From: Desulfuromonas sp. | GTDB lineage: Bacteria; Desulfobacterota; Desulfuromonadia; Desulfuromonadales; Geothermobacteraceae | Direction of reading: 5' to 3' | DNA: 64,000 nt | NCBI GenBank assembly: GCA_002868905.1 | Contig: PKUA01000029.1 | Span: 1 to 64,000, forward strand | Shown here: positions 9,110 through 32,074 of the stretch, piece after piece | Layout of the letters: each line of letters opens with the position of its first letter | How positions within the stretch are numbered: the first letter of the stretch is position 1 | Program-made: the position numbers and the translations under genes | Notes under the pieces: generated by a model | The model's input: the letters and a program-made list of their open reading frames with translations, nothing else | Told to the model about the DNA's origin: nothing | The model's database searches: none

Positions 9110-9128
9110 AAAGAAGCGTCATTGAACA

Positions 9129-9303
9129 GATCTGGGATGTACGAGCGGATTTCAGGAGCGTGGCCAACACCGTTAAGAGATCAAACCTCTTGTCACTGTG
9201 TGGTGAGCAAGCCCACCCCTGAGTGGGACGCCTGAAACACATTGCGGGGTCGAGCAAAACAGTTCTTGGCTTCGTCCGTTGAAACCGTTCGGCATCCCGG
9301 ATG
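9129..9303 (+). ncRNA. ssrS: 6S RNA
   Basis: A long imperfect hairpin with the 6S architecture. The closing stem pairs TCTGGGATG (9131-9139) with CATCCCGGA (9293-9301), then CGAGCGGATTTC with GAAACCGTTCG. The interior holds a GGTGAGCAAGC element that resembles GGTGAGCATGC of E. coli 6S RNA, then a small hairpin (CCCAC/GTGGG) and GACGCCTGAAAC, matching the E. coli GAAGCCTTAAAAC in the 3' side of the central bubble. The length of about 175 nt fits the family. 6S RNA mimics an open promoter and binds housekeeping RNA polymerase in stationary phase. Open frames across this region are not credible genes. A terminator follows at 9321-9366. Confidence 0.88.
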
Positions 9304-9320
9304 TGCATAAACCATGAATG

Positions 9321-27632: not shown

Positions 27633-27648
27633 TGGCAGGCAACTTGCA
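27633..27648 (+). promoter_or_regulatory. Candidate sigma-54 promoter for the HD-GYP gene
   Basis: TGGCAGGCAACTTGCA has the -24 GG and -12 GC elements exactly ten bases apart and differs little from TGGCACG-N4-TTGCA. It points to the HD-GYP gene, which begins about 205 bases downstream. No enhancer site was identified. Confidence 0.5.
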
Positions 27649-27853
27649 AGTATTTGAGTTGATAAACAGGCGGCAAATCATAATTCGTCATAATTTTGCT
27701 GTCAAGCGCTAGCACTCCTGCGTGAAAAGACATGACAGAACGTCTTTTGCCGTAATAGTTGCGTGTACGTGCAGGATGCAGGAAACATCAGCAGGACGGG
27801 AATAATTAAAATCGGCCCTCTTCAGGGCACGAAAAAGGCAGGCTCCGAGACCA

Positions 27854-29896
27854 GTGTTCAATTCTCTGAAAGTCAAAATTATCGGGTTGACAACGGTCAT
27901 CATGATCATGGCGGTTGTGTTGACCGCATGGCTGAACGTCCGAACCCAGGAAGCGATGCTGTCCCGTTTCGCCGAGCAAAACGGTCGCGTCCTCGGGGAC
28001 ACCATCCACAACAGCATCATCGCCAACATGGCGAGCGGTAAAAACGAAGAAGTCGCCAATATCCTCCGCCGCATCGCCAAAGAACCCGCCATTGAATCAA
28101 TCCGAATTTTTGATGAAACCGGTCGAATTCTGATCTCTGCCTTTCCTGAGGAAACCGGTGATCTTGTCCCGGCTTCTGAAATTCTCGCTTATCGATCCGG
28201 AAAATTTGCGTTCACGCAGAGCATGGACGGTTCCCTGCACCACACCAACATGGTGCCGATACACAACGCACCTGTCTGTCATGAATGCCATGACTCGAAC
28301 ATCGACGTACTCGGCATTCTCAACGTACACATCTCGCTTACCGAGATGGCCATGCTGCAGAACCAGGGGCGAGCTGCTGCCATTCTCTCCTCCGGTGGCA
28401 TGCTTGTTTTCCTCATCCTGATTCTCGCTGCCTTCATACTTATCTATGTCGATCGTCCGTTGCGGAGATTTGCCTCGGCCATGCATTTGGTGGAACAAGG
28501 AGACTTTGGCCGTGCTACCACCTCAATCGGCAGTTCCCGTGAGATGGCCATCCTGTCCGAAAAATTCAACCTCATGGTCGACAGACTGAAGAACCTGATC
28601 GAAAGAACCGTCGCCCAGGAGAGGGAGATGGCGGTAACGGAAGAGAAGCTCTCCCACCACGATGAAATCCGCAACATGAACATCACCCTGGAGGAGCGGC
28701 TCAAAGAGATCGAGTACCTCAACATCACTCTGGAAGAACGGATTGAAGAGATCGAGGAAGCCAACTTCAAGATAGCCGACCTCGCGGGGGAGCTTGAAGA
28801 ACGCAACACCAATCTTGAGCGCGCCGTCAACAGGCTTCAGGCTCTCAATCAGATGGGACTGTCGATTAATTCGACCAACAACCTGCCGCGACTTTTCAAC
28901 CAGTTGATCAACCGTGCCCTCGACACACTCAACGCCAATGTCGGTTATATCCTGTTACTGGACCGCGACAGTTGGACTCTGAAAATCGGTGCTGCCAAGG
29001 GAATTGCCGAGAATTTCGATCGTAACATGCGGATTCCGATCAAGCAGGGCGGCGTCTCGCAGTGGGTCCTCAAAAACCACCAACCCCTGTTGATATCGGA
29101 CATTTCCGAGAGCAGGGAGTTCAGTCGCGTCAGCCGTCTCGGCTTCACGAGGGAAACCGTTATCTGCGCTCCCCTGACCAACCAGAACGAAATCATCGGC
29201 ACACTGACATTCTGCAATCGTCGGGATGAATCACCATTCAACGCCGAGGACCTCGAACTGACTTCGACCATCGCTGCACAGGCCAGCGTTGCCATTCGGA
29301 ATGCCCGCCTCTACGAGGAGCAGGAGCTTACCTACCTCAACACGGTTCAGGCCCTGGTTTCCGCCGTTGAGGCTAGCGACGCCTACACCCGCGGACACTC
29401 CGAACGAGTCACCCGGTATGCCATGAAGCTTGCCAACCACATGGATCTCTCGGTGGAGTCGCTGAAGAATCTCGAACAGGCCGCCATCCTTCACGACATC
29501 GGCAAAATAGGTATCTGCGAAGCGGTTCTCCATAAAAAGGAGAAACTCTCGAGCGAAGAGTTCGAAATCCTTTATCAACACCCCGCGATCGGGCACAAGA
29601 TTCTCGCCCCGATCAGCTTCCTCGGCGAGGTCAGGGACATCATCCACCAGCACCATGAAAGATTTGACGGCAAAGGCTACCCTGCCGGGCTCAAAGGTGA
29701 GGACATCTCCCTTGAAGCGAGAATTCTCGCTGTTGCCGACACCTACGATGCCATGACCACCGACAGACCCTATCGGAAGGCCTTGAGCCACGAAATCACA
29801 ATCCAGGAAATTCGTGATCACGCAGGGTCGCAGTTTGATCCCGTCGTTGCCGAGGCTTTTCTGGAAATGTGCGAAAAATCCCCGATTCACACCTAA
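27854..29896 (+). CDS. HD-GYP c-di-GMP phosphodiesterase with c-haem periplasmic sensor, HAMP and GAF
   Basis: A 680-residue sensor starting at GTG (27854). Residues about 10-30 (IIGLTTVIMIMAVVLTAWLN) and 175-198 are transmembrane. The periplasmic loop between them contains VPIHNAPVCHECHDSNIDV, a CXXCH site for covalent haem. A HAMP domain (about 200-250), a long coiled coil (250-330), a GAF domain (about 345-490) and an HD-GYP domain follow. The active site is visible in AILHDIGKIGI and HHERFDGKGYPAGLKGEDI. The HD-GYP family hydrolyses c-di-GMP. A haem sensor suggests control by redox state or a gas, which is inferred. The GGDEF gene follows after 18 bases, giving opposing activities in one operon. 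Confidence 0.93.
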   Translation: MFNSLKVKIIGLTTVIMIMAVVLTAWLNVRTQEAMLSRFAEQNGRVLGDTIHNSIIANMASGKNEEVANILRRIAKEPAIESIRIFDETGRILISAFPEETGDLVPASEILAYRSGKFAFTQSMDGSLHHTNMVPIHNAPVCHECHDSNIDVLGILNVHISLTEMAMLQNQGRAAAILSSGGMLVFLILILAAFILIYVDRPLRRFASAMHLVEQGDFGRATTSIGSSREMAILSEKFNLMVDRLKNLIERTVAQEREMAVTEEKLSHHDEIRNMNITLEERLKEIEYLNITLEERIEEIEEANFKIADLAGELEERNTNLERAVNRLQALNQMGLSINSTNNLPRLFNQLINRALDTLNANVGYILLLDRDSWTLKIGAAKGIAENFDRNMRIPIKQGGVSQWVLKNHQPLLISDISESREFSRVSRLGFTRETVICAPLTNQNEIIGTLTFCNRRDESPFNAEDLELTSTIAAQASVAIRNARLYEEQELTYLNTVQALVSAVEASDAYTRGHSERVTRYAMKLANHMDLSVESLKNLEQAAILHDIGKIGICEAVLHKKEKLSSEEFEILYQHPAIGHKILAPISFLGEVRDIIHQHHERFDGKGYPAGLKGEDISLEARILAVADTYDAMTTDRPYRKALSHEITIQEIRDHAGSQFDPVVAEAFLEMCEKSPIHT

Positions 29897-29914
29897 CCGA
29901 CCGTTGATTTGCTC

Positions 29915-32074
29915 ATGAGGTTTGCCGCAGTTCGATCACTGTCTCTCTCCAAGAAAATCCTGCTGCCGTTTATCCTGCTTCTTCTTATTCTCGGCCTCAC
30001 CGCCACCCTCGGAACCATCTACCTGATCCACGACTCACTCAACACCTCCACGAACCAACACCTGGAGGAGTCGCGCGATCGAATGCTGCATCAGATCAAA
30101 GCGGTCGAAAGACACCTTTTGCACGATTCAGAACTACTCACCGCATCGATGATTGACGGCAAGTTGGACCCATCTACCTTTCAAGCCCAATCGAAGGCTT
30201 TGCAGTTATCGGGGATGGTAGCAAAACTGCTCAACCGGGACGATGTTGCCAAGATAGAGAATATACAACTTCGTCAATTCATCGATCATGCCATCCGGAG
30301 CGGCAAGCCTCGCCTTCGCTTCTTTGACCAGCTTTCCGGCGAACCCACGCTCGCTCTCGCGTTAACCTTGACCGAGGACGAATCACCTCAAGTCCTGTTT
30401 CTTTACCATCCTTTCAAGCAGGCCTTTTTCAATCCCCTGCTCGGCTCAACCAAACTCGACTATTATCTGTTCAGCAAATTCGGCGATCCCCTTCTTTCCA
30501 GTGATCCGGGCAGGGAATTACCACCCATTTCCAGTGAGACGCTTGACAAAGCCATTCAGGGGATATCAACCACCTCAAACATACCGGGTGAGAGAACGCG
30601 GTATATCCTGAGCGGGGTTCCACTCGGCACAACTGACCTGCTTCTCATCGGTGTAGCCGTACCGACCAAGCAACTCGAAACCCTGATTGGAAGTCTTGCG
30701 ACCCGCTCCGTTTTCACCATCCTGATTATTCTCATCGCCGGCGGTCTGCTCTTCTTCAAATATCTCACCTACCTGACAAAACCGGTCGAAGAACTCCTTG
30801 CCGCCACCCGACGTGTCAGTGACGGAGACCTTGAATACCGCCTTCCTGTCGATCCGGACCATGAGGGCGACGAATTGAATCAACTCTCGTTCTCATTCAA
30901 TTCGATGGTCGAACAACTCTCTGAGCTATGGCAGGAGAAGGTGTCCAACGAGCGTGAGTTGACCCTGGCCCAGGAAGAGTTGAAGTACAAGGAAATCCTC
31001 GAAACGAAGAACAGTGAAATCGAGCGCTCGCACCAGGAACTTCGGTCCTCCTTCAAGGAACTGACCGCCCTGCTGCAATTGAACCAGACGATGACCTCGA
31101 CCCTTGATTTGAGTGTTCTTTTCGATCGTATGCTCTCGGTTCTGAGAGAGCTTTTCAGCTGCAAACTTGTTTTACTTCTCTATGATTCCGGGAGCAACGA
31201 TCTGGAATTTCGTAAATCGGTCGGCATCGATCCGGAAGTCTTAAAAGATGTCACTTTTGAACTTGATGAGGGCATAACCGGACGCGCGGCCAACACGCAG
31301 AAACTTGTCTACGTTGCCGACATTAAGAATGATAACGGCAATCTGAATTACAAAGGGAGGGTTTCACCCCGGGGAGCGATGGCGAGCGTCCCGCTGGTTA
31401 ACAAAAACCGGCTTCTCGGGGTTTTGAACCTGCACCACGAGGAAGTAGACGGTTTCAACGACAATGACCTCAGGCTGATCCAGGCGATAGCCAACCAGGC
31501 GGCGATCGCGATTGAAAACAGTCAACTCTATGAAAAAGCCCGCAATCTTTCCAACACCGACGAGTTGACCGGGCTCGCAAACCGAAGGCATTTTCAAACC
31601 ATCCTTCAGCGGGAAGCAGCCCAGGCCCAACGATTTCAATCGTATTTTGCCCTGATGATGATCGACATCGATCATTTCAAGCAGTACAACGACACCCACG
31701 GCCATCTCAAAGGGGATGTCGTCCTGCGGCAGGTCTCAAGTCTTTTGTTGCACAACACGAGAGGGATCGATTTGGTGGCGAGGTTTGGTGGCGAGGAGTT
31801 CGTGCTTCTGCTACCGAAGACCAATAATCACGGCGCCAGGGCTGCCGCGGAAAAATTACGCTCCTGTATTTCCCAGGCTGAATTCGAAGGTGCCGCCGAA
31901 AGCCAGCCACTTGGCAAGCTCACCATTTCGATCGGCATTTCCGTCTACCCGGATGACAGCAAGGATGTATTCGAACTGCTCGACCTGGCCGACCGGGCTC
32001 TCTACCAGGCAAAAGACGCCGGTCGAAACCAATCCATTATCTGGAGCGACACTTTCAAAAATGCGGCGTCCTGA
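29915..32074 (+). CDS. Membrane GGDEF diguanylate cyclase with HAMP and GAF
   Basis: About 719 residues from the ATG at 29915; a TTG six bases earlier is an alternative. Two membrane helices (about 15-38 and 268-290) enclose a periplasmic sensor region with no recognised motif. A HAMP domain, a coiled coil, a GAF domain (about 390-540) and a C-terminal GGDEF domain follow. The active site RFGGEEFVLLLP is intact, and RGID five residues before it matches the RxxD inhibitory site, so c-di-GMP feedback is likely. It makes c-di-GMP and is encoded directly after the HD-GYP gene. Confidence 0.94.
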   Translation: MRFAAVRSLSLSKKILLPFILLLLILGLTATLGTIYLIHDSLNTSTNQHLEESRDRMLHQIKAVERHLLHDSELLTASMIDGKLDPSTFQAQSKALQLSGMVAKLLNRDDVAKIENIQLRQFIDHAIRSGKPRLRFFDQLSGEPTLALALTLTEDESPQVLFLYHPFKQAFFNPLLGSTKLDYYLFSKFGDPLLSSDPGRELPPISSETLDKAIQGISTTSNIPGERTRYILSGVPLGTTDLLLIGVAVPTKQLETLIGSLATRSVFTILIILIAGGLLFFKYLTYLTKPVEELLAATRRVSDGDLEYRLPVDPDHEGDELNQLSFSFNSMVEQLSELWQEKVSNERELTLAQEELKYKEILETKNSEIERSHQELRSSFKELTALLQLNQTMTSTLDLSVLFDRMLSVLRELFSCKLVLLLYDSGSNDLEFRKSVGIDPEVLKDVTFELDEGITGRAANTQKLVYVADIKNDNGNLNYKGRVSPRGAMASVPLVNKNRLLGVLNLHHEEVDGFNDNDLRLIQAIANQAAIAIENSQLYEKARNLSNTDELTGLANRRHFQTILQREAAQAQRFQSYFALMMIDIDHFKQYNDTHGHLKGDVVLRQVSSLLLHNTRGIDLVARFGGEEFVLLLPKTNNHGARAAAEKLRSCISQAEFEGAAESQPLGKLTISIGISVYPDDSKDVFELLDLADRALYQAKDAGRNQSIIWSDTFKNAAS

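Follow-up and report, generated by a model that had tools for sequence, protein, structure and literature searches.

The periplasmic sensor domains of GSU0935 and GSU0582 (PDB 3B42 and 3B47; family PF21563) lie between two transmembrane helices and bind haem c; in GSU0935 the haem is His/Met-ligated, nitric oxide (NO) and carbon monoxide (CO) displace the Met of the reduced haem, and oxidation frees it (PMC8396549). A preprint places both proteins in the sCache_heme/DUF3365/Tll0287 family (PF11845), characterised by a Cache fold with an inserted CXXCH motif, and reports fusions to enzymes of cyclic di-GMP (c-di-GMP) metabolism, for which its text names GGDEF and EAL outputs, not HD-GYP; NO binding with slow release and the kinetics of an NO sensor are described there for a membrane-bound family member containing HAMP (PMC12889525). 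Haem control of an HD-GYP phosphodiesterase is known from the globin-coupled enzyme of Vibrio fluvialis, which O2 activates but NO and CO do not (PMC10882959). The HAMP/GAF/HD-GYP protein GSU2622 carries a haem motif (PMC2923632, PMC8396549), was called a predicted c-haem phosphohydrolase in 2010 (PMC2923632), and also appears in later transcriptome papers. Here we analyse a locus of Desulfuromonas sp. in which the gene for a c-haem-sensor HD-GYP protein is directly followed by one for a GGDEF protein, within a stretch of 64,000 nucleotides (nt) of contig PKUA01000029.1 (positions 1 to 64,000), hereafter the window.

The observed locus is confirmed as real, and we put a probability of about 0.72 on the reading that its two genes form a sigma-54-transcribed pair that adjusts c-di-GMP, in which the HD-GYP protein would be a haem-gated one-component sensor and the GGDEF protein a cyclase that answers to a separate signal. 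The HD-GYP protein has the same described domain set and haem motif as GSU2622. Its sensor is of the same family as those of GSU0935 and GSU0582, with the CXXCH motif and the distal Met aligned, but identity is only about 25% and the output is HD-GYP rather than a chemoreceptor. It likewise has the Cache fold with inserted CXXCH described for the sCache_heme proteins, for which HD-GYP is not among the outputs named in the preprint's text. The V. fluvialis enzyme is the nearest parallel for haem control of this output, but its globin sensor is unrelated. The haem of globins is bound non-covalently. The two genes are as follows.

27854-29896, + strand: HD-GYP gene, encoding a predicted c-haem-sensor phosphodiesterase (GTG start, 680 amino acids)
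29909-32074, + strand: GGDEF gene, encoding a predicted dCache-HAMP-GAF-GGDEF diguanylate cyclase (TTG start, 721 amino acids)

The gap between them is 12 nt, or 18 nt if the GGDEF gene starts at the alternative ATG at 29915, and no terminator-like site was found between the two. By spacing and the terminator-free gap they are likely to be one operon, as had been proposed in a preliminary description of this DNA.

The HD-GYP protein comprises, in order, a transmembrane helix, a periplasmic c-haem sCache sensor, a second transmembrane helix, HAMP, a coiled coil, GAF and HD-GYP. The features of its sensory half are listed here.

27863-27943, + strand: transmembrane helix 1, residues 4-30 (hydropathy)
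27944-28366, + strand: periplasmic c-haem sCache sensor domain, residues 31-171 (PF21563, 3B42, AlphaFold2, Foldseek)
28028-28030, + strand: Met59, putative distal ligand of the haem (Met60 of GSU0935 in the alignment)
28277-28291, + strand: CHECH, covalent haem-attachment motif, residues 142-146 (Cys142, Cys145, His146; conservation)
28367-28465, + strand: transmembrane helix 2, residues 172-204 (hydropathy)

The preliminary description had placed CHECH in a periplasmic loop between two membrane helices, and this is borne out by the hydrophobic segments at residues 4-30 and 172-204 on either side of the motif and by family matches. The sensor matches the PF21563 profile with an expect value (E) of 2.4e-7 and 31.4 bits, against a curated cut-off of 27, and aligns with the GSU0935 structure (3B42; E = 3.5e-7) with both CXXCH motifs in register. 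These two matches indicate that CHECH is not a chance CXXCH. An AlphaFold2 model of the sensor adopts a Cache-type (sCache/PAS-like) fold with a predicted local distance difference test score (pLDDT) of 91.2, and its top Foldseek match is again 3B42 (E = 6.4e-7, TM score 0.45, root-mean-square deviation 13 Å). The large deviation probably comes from the domain-swapped dimer in the crystal, our AlphaFold2 models being monomers; that 3B42 is not among the 50 matches listed in the VIA list was not counted against family membership. The PF11845 profile gave no match to the sensor at E ≤ 1, and membership of sCache_heme follows via GSU0935 alone. The genome also encodes one other PF21563 sensor, its sole further example, in a histidine kinase (HAMP, HisKA, HATPase) with the motif CSSCH on another contig, outside the window (L119:487-2037, - strand, contig C79).

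A lack of conservation of CHECH among close homologues, which by the preliminary description would refute its reading, was looked for and not found: CXXCH is kept in 34/34 full-length orthologues from 58 genomes and in all 48 named orthologue loci, two sets that overlap. Met59 is nearly invariant in alignment A1, a Met standing at its position in 46 of 47 named loci; its equivalence to GSU0935 Met60 uses a Met60 numbering deduced from the spacing to His144. Genes for cytochrome c assembly are present in the genome. From these comparisons the HD-GYP protein is predicted to bind covalent haem c on its sensor, with Met59 as the putative distal ligand.

The cytoplasmic half of the protein is made up of the following.

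28454-28591, + strand: HAMP-like segment (PF00672), residues 201-246; a conserved coiled coil comes next
28883-29296, + strand: GAF domain, residues 344-481 (PF01590, E = 4.3e-16)
29354-29848, + strand: HD-GYP domain, residues 501-665 (PF13487, E = 2.7e-42)

The PF00672 match (21.5 bits) is under the cut-off in the window protein and over it in a Geobacter orthologue, and the coiled coil after this segment is conserved in alignment A1. The HD-GYP domain contains the motifs HDIGK and HHERFDGKGYP. Its best match of solved structure is PmGH (PDB 4MCW, E = 7.1e-39), with which it has the catalytic domain in common, and the second-best is V-cGAP3 (E = 1.2e-38), which has the segment YTxGHSERV in common with the window's domain. 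Every complete orthologue has identical counterparts of the PmGH metal ligands H189, H221, D222, H250, H276, H277 and D305, and of D183 and K225. The position of PmGH E185, the Glu/Asp of the trinuclear centre, is instead occupied by Tyr in 49/49, which puts the domain outside the trinuclear subgroup; by its residues the domain is a member of the Y/F subfamily, which was predicted to be binuclear by Bellini et al. (PMC4159591). Because of the match to PmGH and the retained metal ligands, the domain is likely to hydrolyse c-di-GMP. Among the orthologues compared, we see no case in which this active site has decayed.

The GGDEF protein has a periplasmic dCache domain between two transmembrane helices, followed by HAMP, GAF and GGDEF.

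29999-30760, + strand: periplasmic dCache-type sensor (AlphaFold2 pLDDT 90.3; top matches dCache-type)
31760-31771, + strand: inhibitory site (I-site) RxxD, here RGID (RxxD kept in partners)
31787-31801, + strand: active-site motif GGEEF, intact

An adjacent GGDEF protein with an intact active site and an inhibitory RxxD had been described at the outset, and both motifs are indeed present, in the arrangement RGID-x5-GGEEF, together with the metal Asp and the base-contact Asn and Asp. In GGDEF proteins of the Hypr type, which make 3',3'-cyclic GMP-AMP (cGAMP), Ser or Thr replaces the base-contact Asp. Such a type was considered and rejected, as that Asp is kept by every one of the 35 full-length partners, the window protein and those of the named loci. 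Given GGEEF, the metal Asp, the base-contact residues and RGID, the window protein should be an ordinary diguanylate cyclase. It contains no CXXCH, and a dCache domain without this motif suggests that the partner senses something other than the haem sensor does. In one of the 35 partners (L096), a CXXCH (CCRCH) occurs in the open frame.

Upstream of the pair, the preliminary description had noted a candidate sigma-54 promoter, for which comparison of leaders now gives support.

27633-27648, + strand: sigma-54 promoter element TGGCAGGCAACTTGCA (TGGCAGG-CAAC-TTGCA, -24/-12; score, conservation)

The element lies 221 nt before the HD-GYP start codon, fits the sigma-54 consensus (PMC2725144) and has a score reached in 0/300 shuffles. 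TGGC-N7-TTGC is found on the sense strand in 38/64 distinct orthologue leaders, 170-360 nt before the gene; the chance level from shuffles is 0.12 leaders, and the opposite strand has none. It also occurs in the Geobacteraceae loci, and rpoN is present in the genome.

Full-length HD-GYP orthologues were found in 34 of 58 genomes and, in an overlapping set, at 48 named loci. Across Desulfuromonadales and Geobacteraceae, the gene adjoins queA-tgt-yajC-secD(F) in essentially every locus long enough; this single fixed genome site argues for vertical inheritance. The gene is old. Geobacteraceae orthologues L107, L108 and L114 (48-49% identity) lie beside queA-tgt-yajC with a sigma-54 element, and probably correspond to GSU2622, which we liken to them from its description. 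Unlike the window, the Geobacteraceae loci have no GGDEF partner adjoining the HD-GYP gene. Full-length partner orthologues occur in 22/58 genomes, directly downstream of the HD-GYP gene in every case (22/22, p = 1.4e-7); adjacent copies were counted in 21 relatives. In one genome that lacks the HD-GYP orthologue, a short contig carries a partner in two pieces (G020:C418:118-1567), which is either a decaying remnant or an assembly break. With multihaem cytochromes counted by PF09699 matches and fewer than three taken as poor, the HD-GYP gene is absent from 9/9 cytochrome-poor relatives and present in 34/49 others (p = 1.2e-4).

Overall, the domain anatomy, the conservation of haem and catalytic residues, the gene layout, the co-occurrence and the sigma-54 element are established by sequence comparison. 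We infer that haem is attached, that Met is a ligand, what the stimulus is and which way it steers activity, that the two genes are co-transcribed, and that c-di-GMP is the substrate. On the mechanism we propose, one haem c would be attached to Cys142 and Cys145, with His146 as the proximal ligand and, in the reduced haem, Met59 probably as the distal one. Oxidation, or binding of NO or CO, would displace Met59. As Met59 lies on a long helix that continues transmembrane helix 1, its release could plausibly set off a membrane signal: it would shift the membrane helices, and the signal would pass via HAMP, coiled coil and GAF to alter HD-GYP activity. The GGDEF protein would read another signal by its dCache domain and synthesise c-di-GMP, subject to product inhibition at the I-site. 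Haem control of c-di-GMP hydrolysis, and the stimulus, be it redox, NO or CO, are proposed by analogy with GSU0935 and GSU0582.

Several observations weigh against this reading. The aligned Met is absent in three of the 34 orthologues (G019, G022 and G036). There are 15 cytochrome-rich genomes that also lack the HD-GYP gene, and the nine cytochrome-poor genomes belong to two families, so that phylogeny confounds the correlation. Given the match to V-cGAP3, the enzyme may act on something else than c-di-GMP, for example on 3',3'-cGAMP. Finally, the operon is a putative one, proposed from spacing.

The alternative that survives best concerns the stimulus: the haem may read redox potential only, of the periplasm or of the electron-transfer chain, and not NO or CO. 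The midpoint potential is -156 mV for GSU0582 and -251 mV for GSU0935, and the two were suggested to act as complementary redox sensors (PMC8396549); the absence of the HD-GYP gene from cytochrome-poor relatives points the same way and has a published parallel, as GSU2622 was reported lost from Pelobacter carbinolicus (PMC2923632). The same domains nevertheless bind NO and CO, the related sCache_heme protein behaves kinetically as an NO sensor (PMC12889525), and redox and gas sensing are indistinguishable by sequence. We give a purely redox function somewhat less than an even chance.

A second alternative concerns the partner. Its active-site motif is altered in 17 of the 35 full-length proteins (among them GNDQF, GTDQF, SKEQF and GSEEF), the base-contact Asn often being lost too, and yet RxxD is kept in 35/35, degenerate ones included. 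Of the 17 altered partners, 16 belong to a single clade (21 rows, support 100/100), in every member of which the partner is degenerate, missing or truncated, the gene having been lost on several branches; the HD-GYP site is intact in these same genomes. The opposing c-di-GMP activities put forward in the preliminary description thus fit the window, but are not general, since many relatives have a partner with a degenerate site or no partner gene. In this clade c-di-GMP synthesis by the partner looks dispensable, and the survival of RxxD is a sign pointing to c-di-GMP binding as its lasting role. Retention of the HD-GYP site and of RxxD under GGDEF decay would make the haem phosphodiesterase the first, and I-site binding the second, lasting requirement.

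It could follow that the GGDEF partner is chiefly a c-di-GMP receptor which, through its I-site, informs or controls the haem phosphodiesterase, possibly by forming a complex with it, with synthesis as a dispensable second activity kept in the window copy. Besides the pattern of decay, a partner orthologue is never seen at full length without the HD-GYP gene. Against this, the window protein and roughly half of the loci have an intact active site, as a working cyclase would, I-sites are common among cyclases anyway, some altered motifs (GSEEF, DGEEF) may stay active, and a complex of the two proteins is purely conjectural. We regard a chiefly receptor role as rather unlikely. We are a little more doubtful still of a fuller two-protein module, in which an undecaying haem-gated phosphodiesterase would have its activity set by c-di-GMP binding at the I-site of the dCache-GGDEF partner, one clade having lost catalysis and kept binding.

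It is improbable that the HD-GYP domain hydrolyses 3',3'-cGAMP, or both dinucleotides, instead of having c-di-GMP as its main substrate. V-cGAP3 is matched almost as well as PmGH and has the same Tyr in place of E185, and cGAMP signalling is known in Geobacter (PMC6456294). The best match is nonetheless a c-di-GMP enzyme, the linked GGDEF protein has the canonical Asp without a Hypr change, and the Y/F feature is shared by a large subfamily and is no mark of specificity for cGAMP (PMC4159591). Weakest of all, and highly improbable, is the suggestion that CHECH is a chance or structural, haem-free motif: we found no point in its support, and against it stand the match to a haem c family of solved structure, the invariant CXXCH, the conserved Met, the periplasmic site and the cytochrome c assembly genes.

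The pair is flanked on both sides by genes on the opposite strand: DUF2065, queA, tgt, yajC, secD and secF to the left, and rsgA (PF03193 match) to the right. A second promoter faces the left-hand group.

27677-27705, - strand: sigma-70-type promoter TTGACA-17-TATGAT, facing the DUF2065 side (11/12 matches)

On this opposing strand 53/64 leaders have a -35/-10 pair; the other strand has one in 26, and shuffles give 15. The promoter overlaps the sigma-54 region, the predicted starts are about 10 nt apart and the transcripts converge; the same overlapping, opposed layout recurs in about 20 relatives, and occlusion between the two promoters is possible. TGTCAAG, which is strongly conserved in the leaders, was considered as a leader element and rejected, as it reads as the -35 box of the opposing promoter. 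A sense-strand motif resembling CGGGCTTTT was seen about 50-120 nt before the HD-GYP start (for example in L035, L038, L059 and L060) and is weak in the window, near 27740; with at most one mismatch it occurs in 17/52 non-redundant leaders, the best chance value being about 12. No credible Rfam hit to a riboswitch, c-di-GMP and cGAMP classes included, was obtained in the window leader (~195 nt) or in 11 orthologue loci. Elsewhere in the window, a 6S RNA is predicted at 9126-9307 (+ strand; Rfam 50.7 bits against a cut-off of 46.4).

Each element is already known, whether this type of sensor, HD-GYP as an output or the control of an HD-GYP enzyme by haem, and it is their combination that is little studied. 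We found no study of the HD-GYP/GGDEF pair in the literature, in a search that left subscription papers mostly outside. Nor did we find an earlier description of the linked partner, of its I-site staying conserved while catalysis decays, of the fixed locus, or of the conserved sigma-54 element and the promoter that opposes it.

Many Desulfuromonadales use cytochromes in the periplasm and outside the cell for respiration, and both their biofilms and their electron transfer are influenced by c-di-GMP. By analogy with the described sensors, the pair probably makes biofilm-type decisions in bacteria of this kind depend on redox state or nitric oxide. Partners in which catalysis has decayed and the I-site is kept offer natural variants for the study of GGDEF roles besides synthesis. 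In short, the pair is old and conserved in cytochrome-rich bacteria, and if the proposed reading is true, a periplasmic haem c sensor wired directly to c-di-GMP breakdown would let redox state or NO act by a short route on a decision about biofilm or electron transfer.

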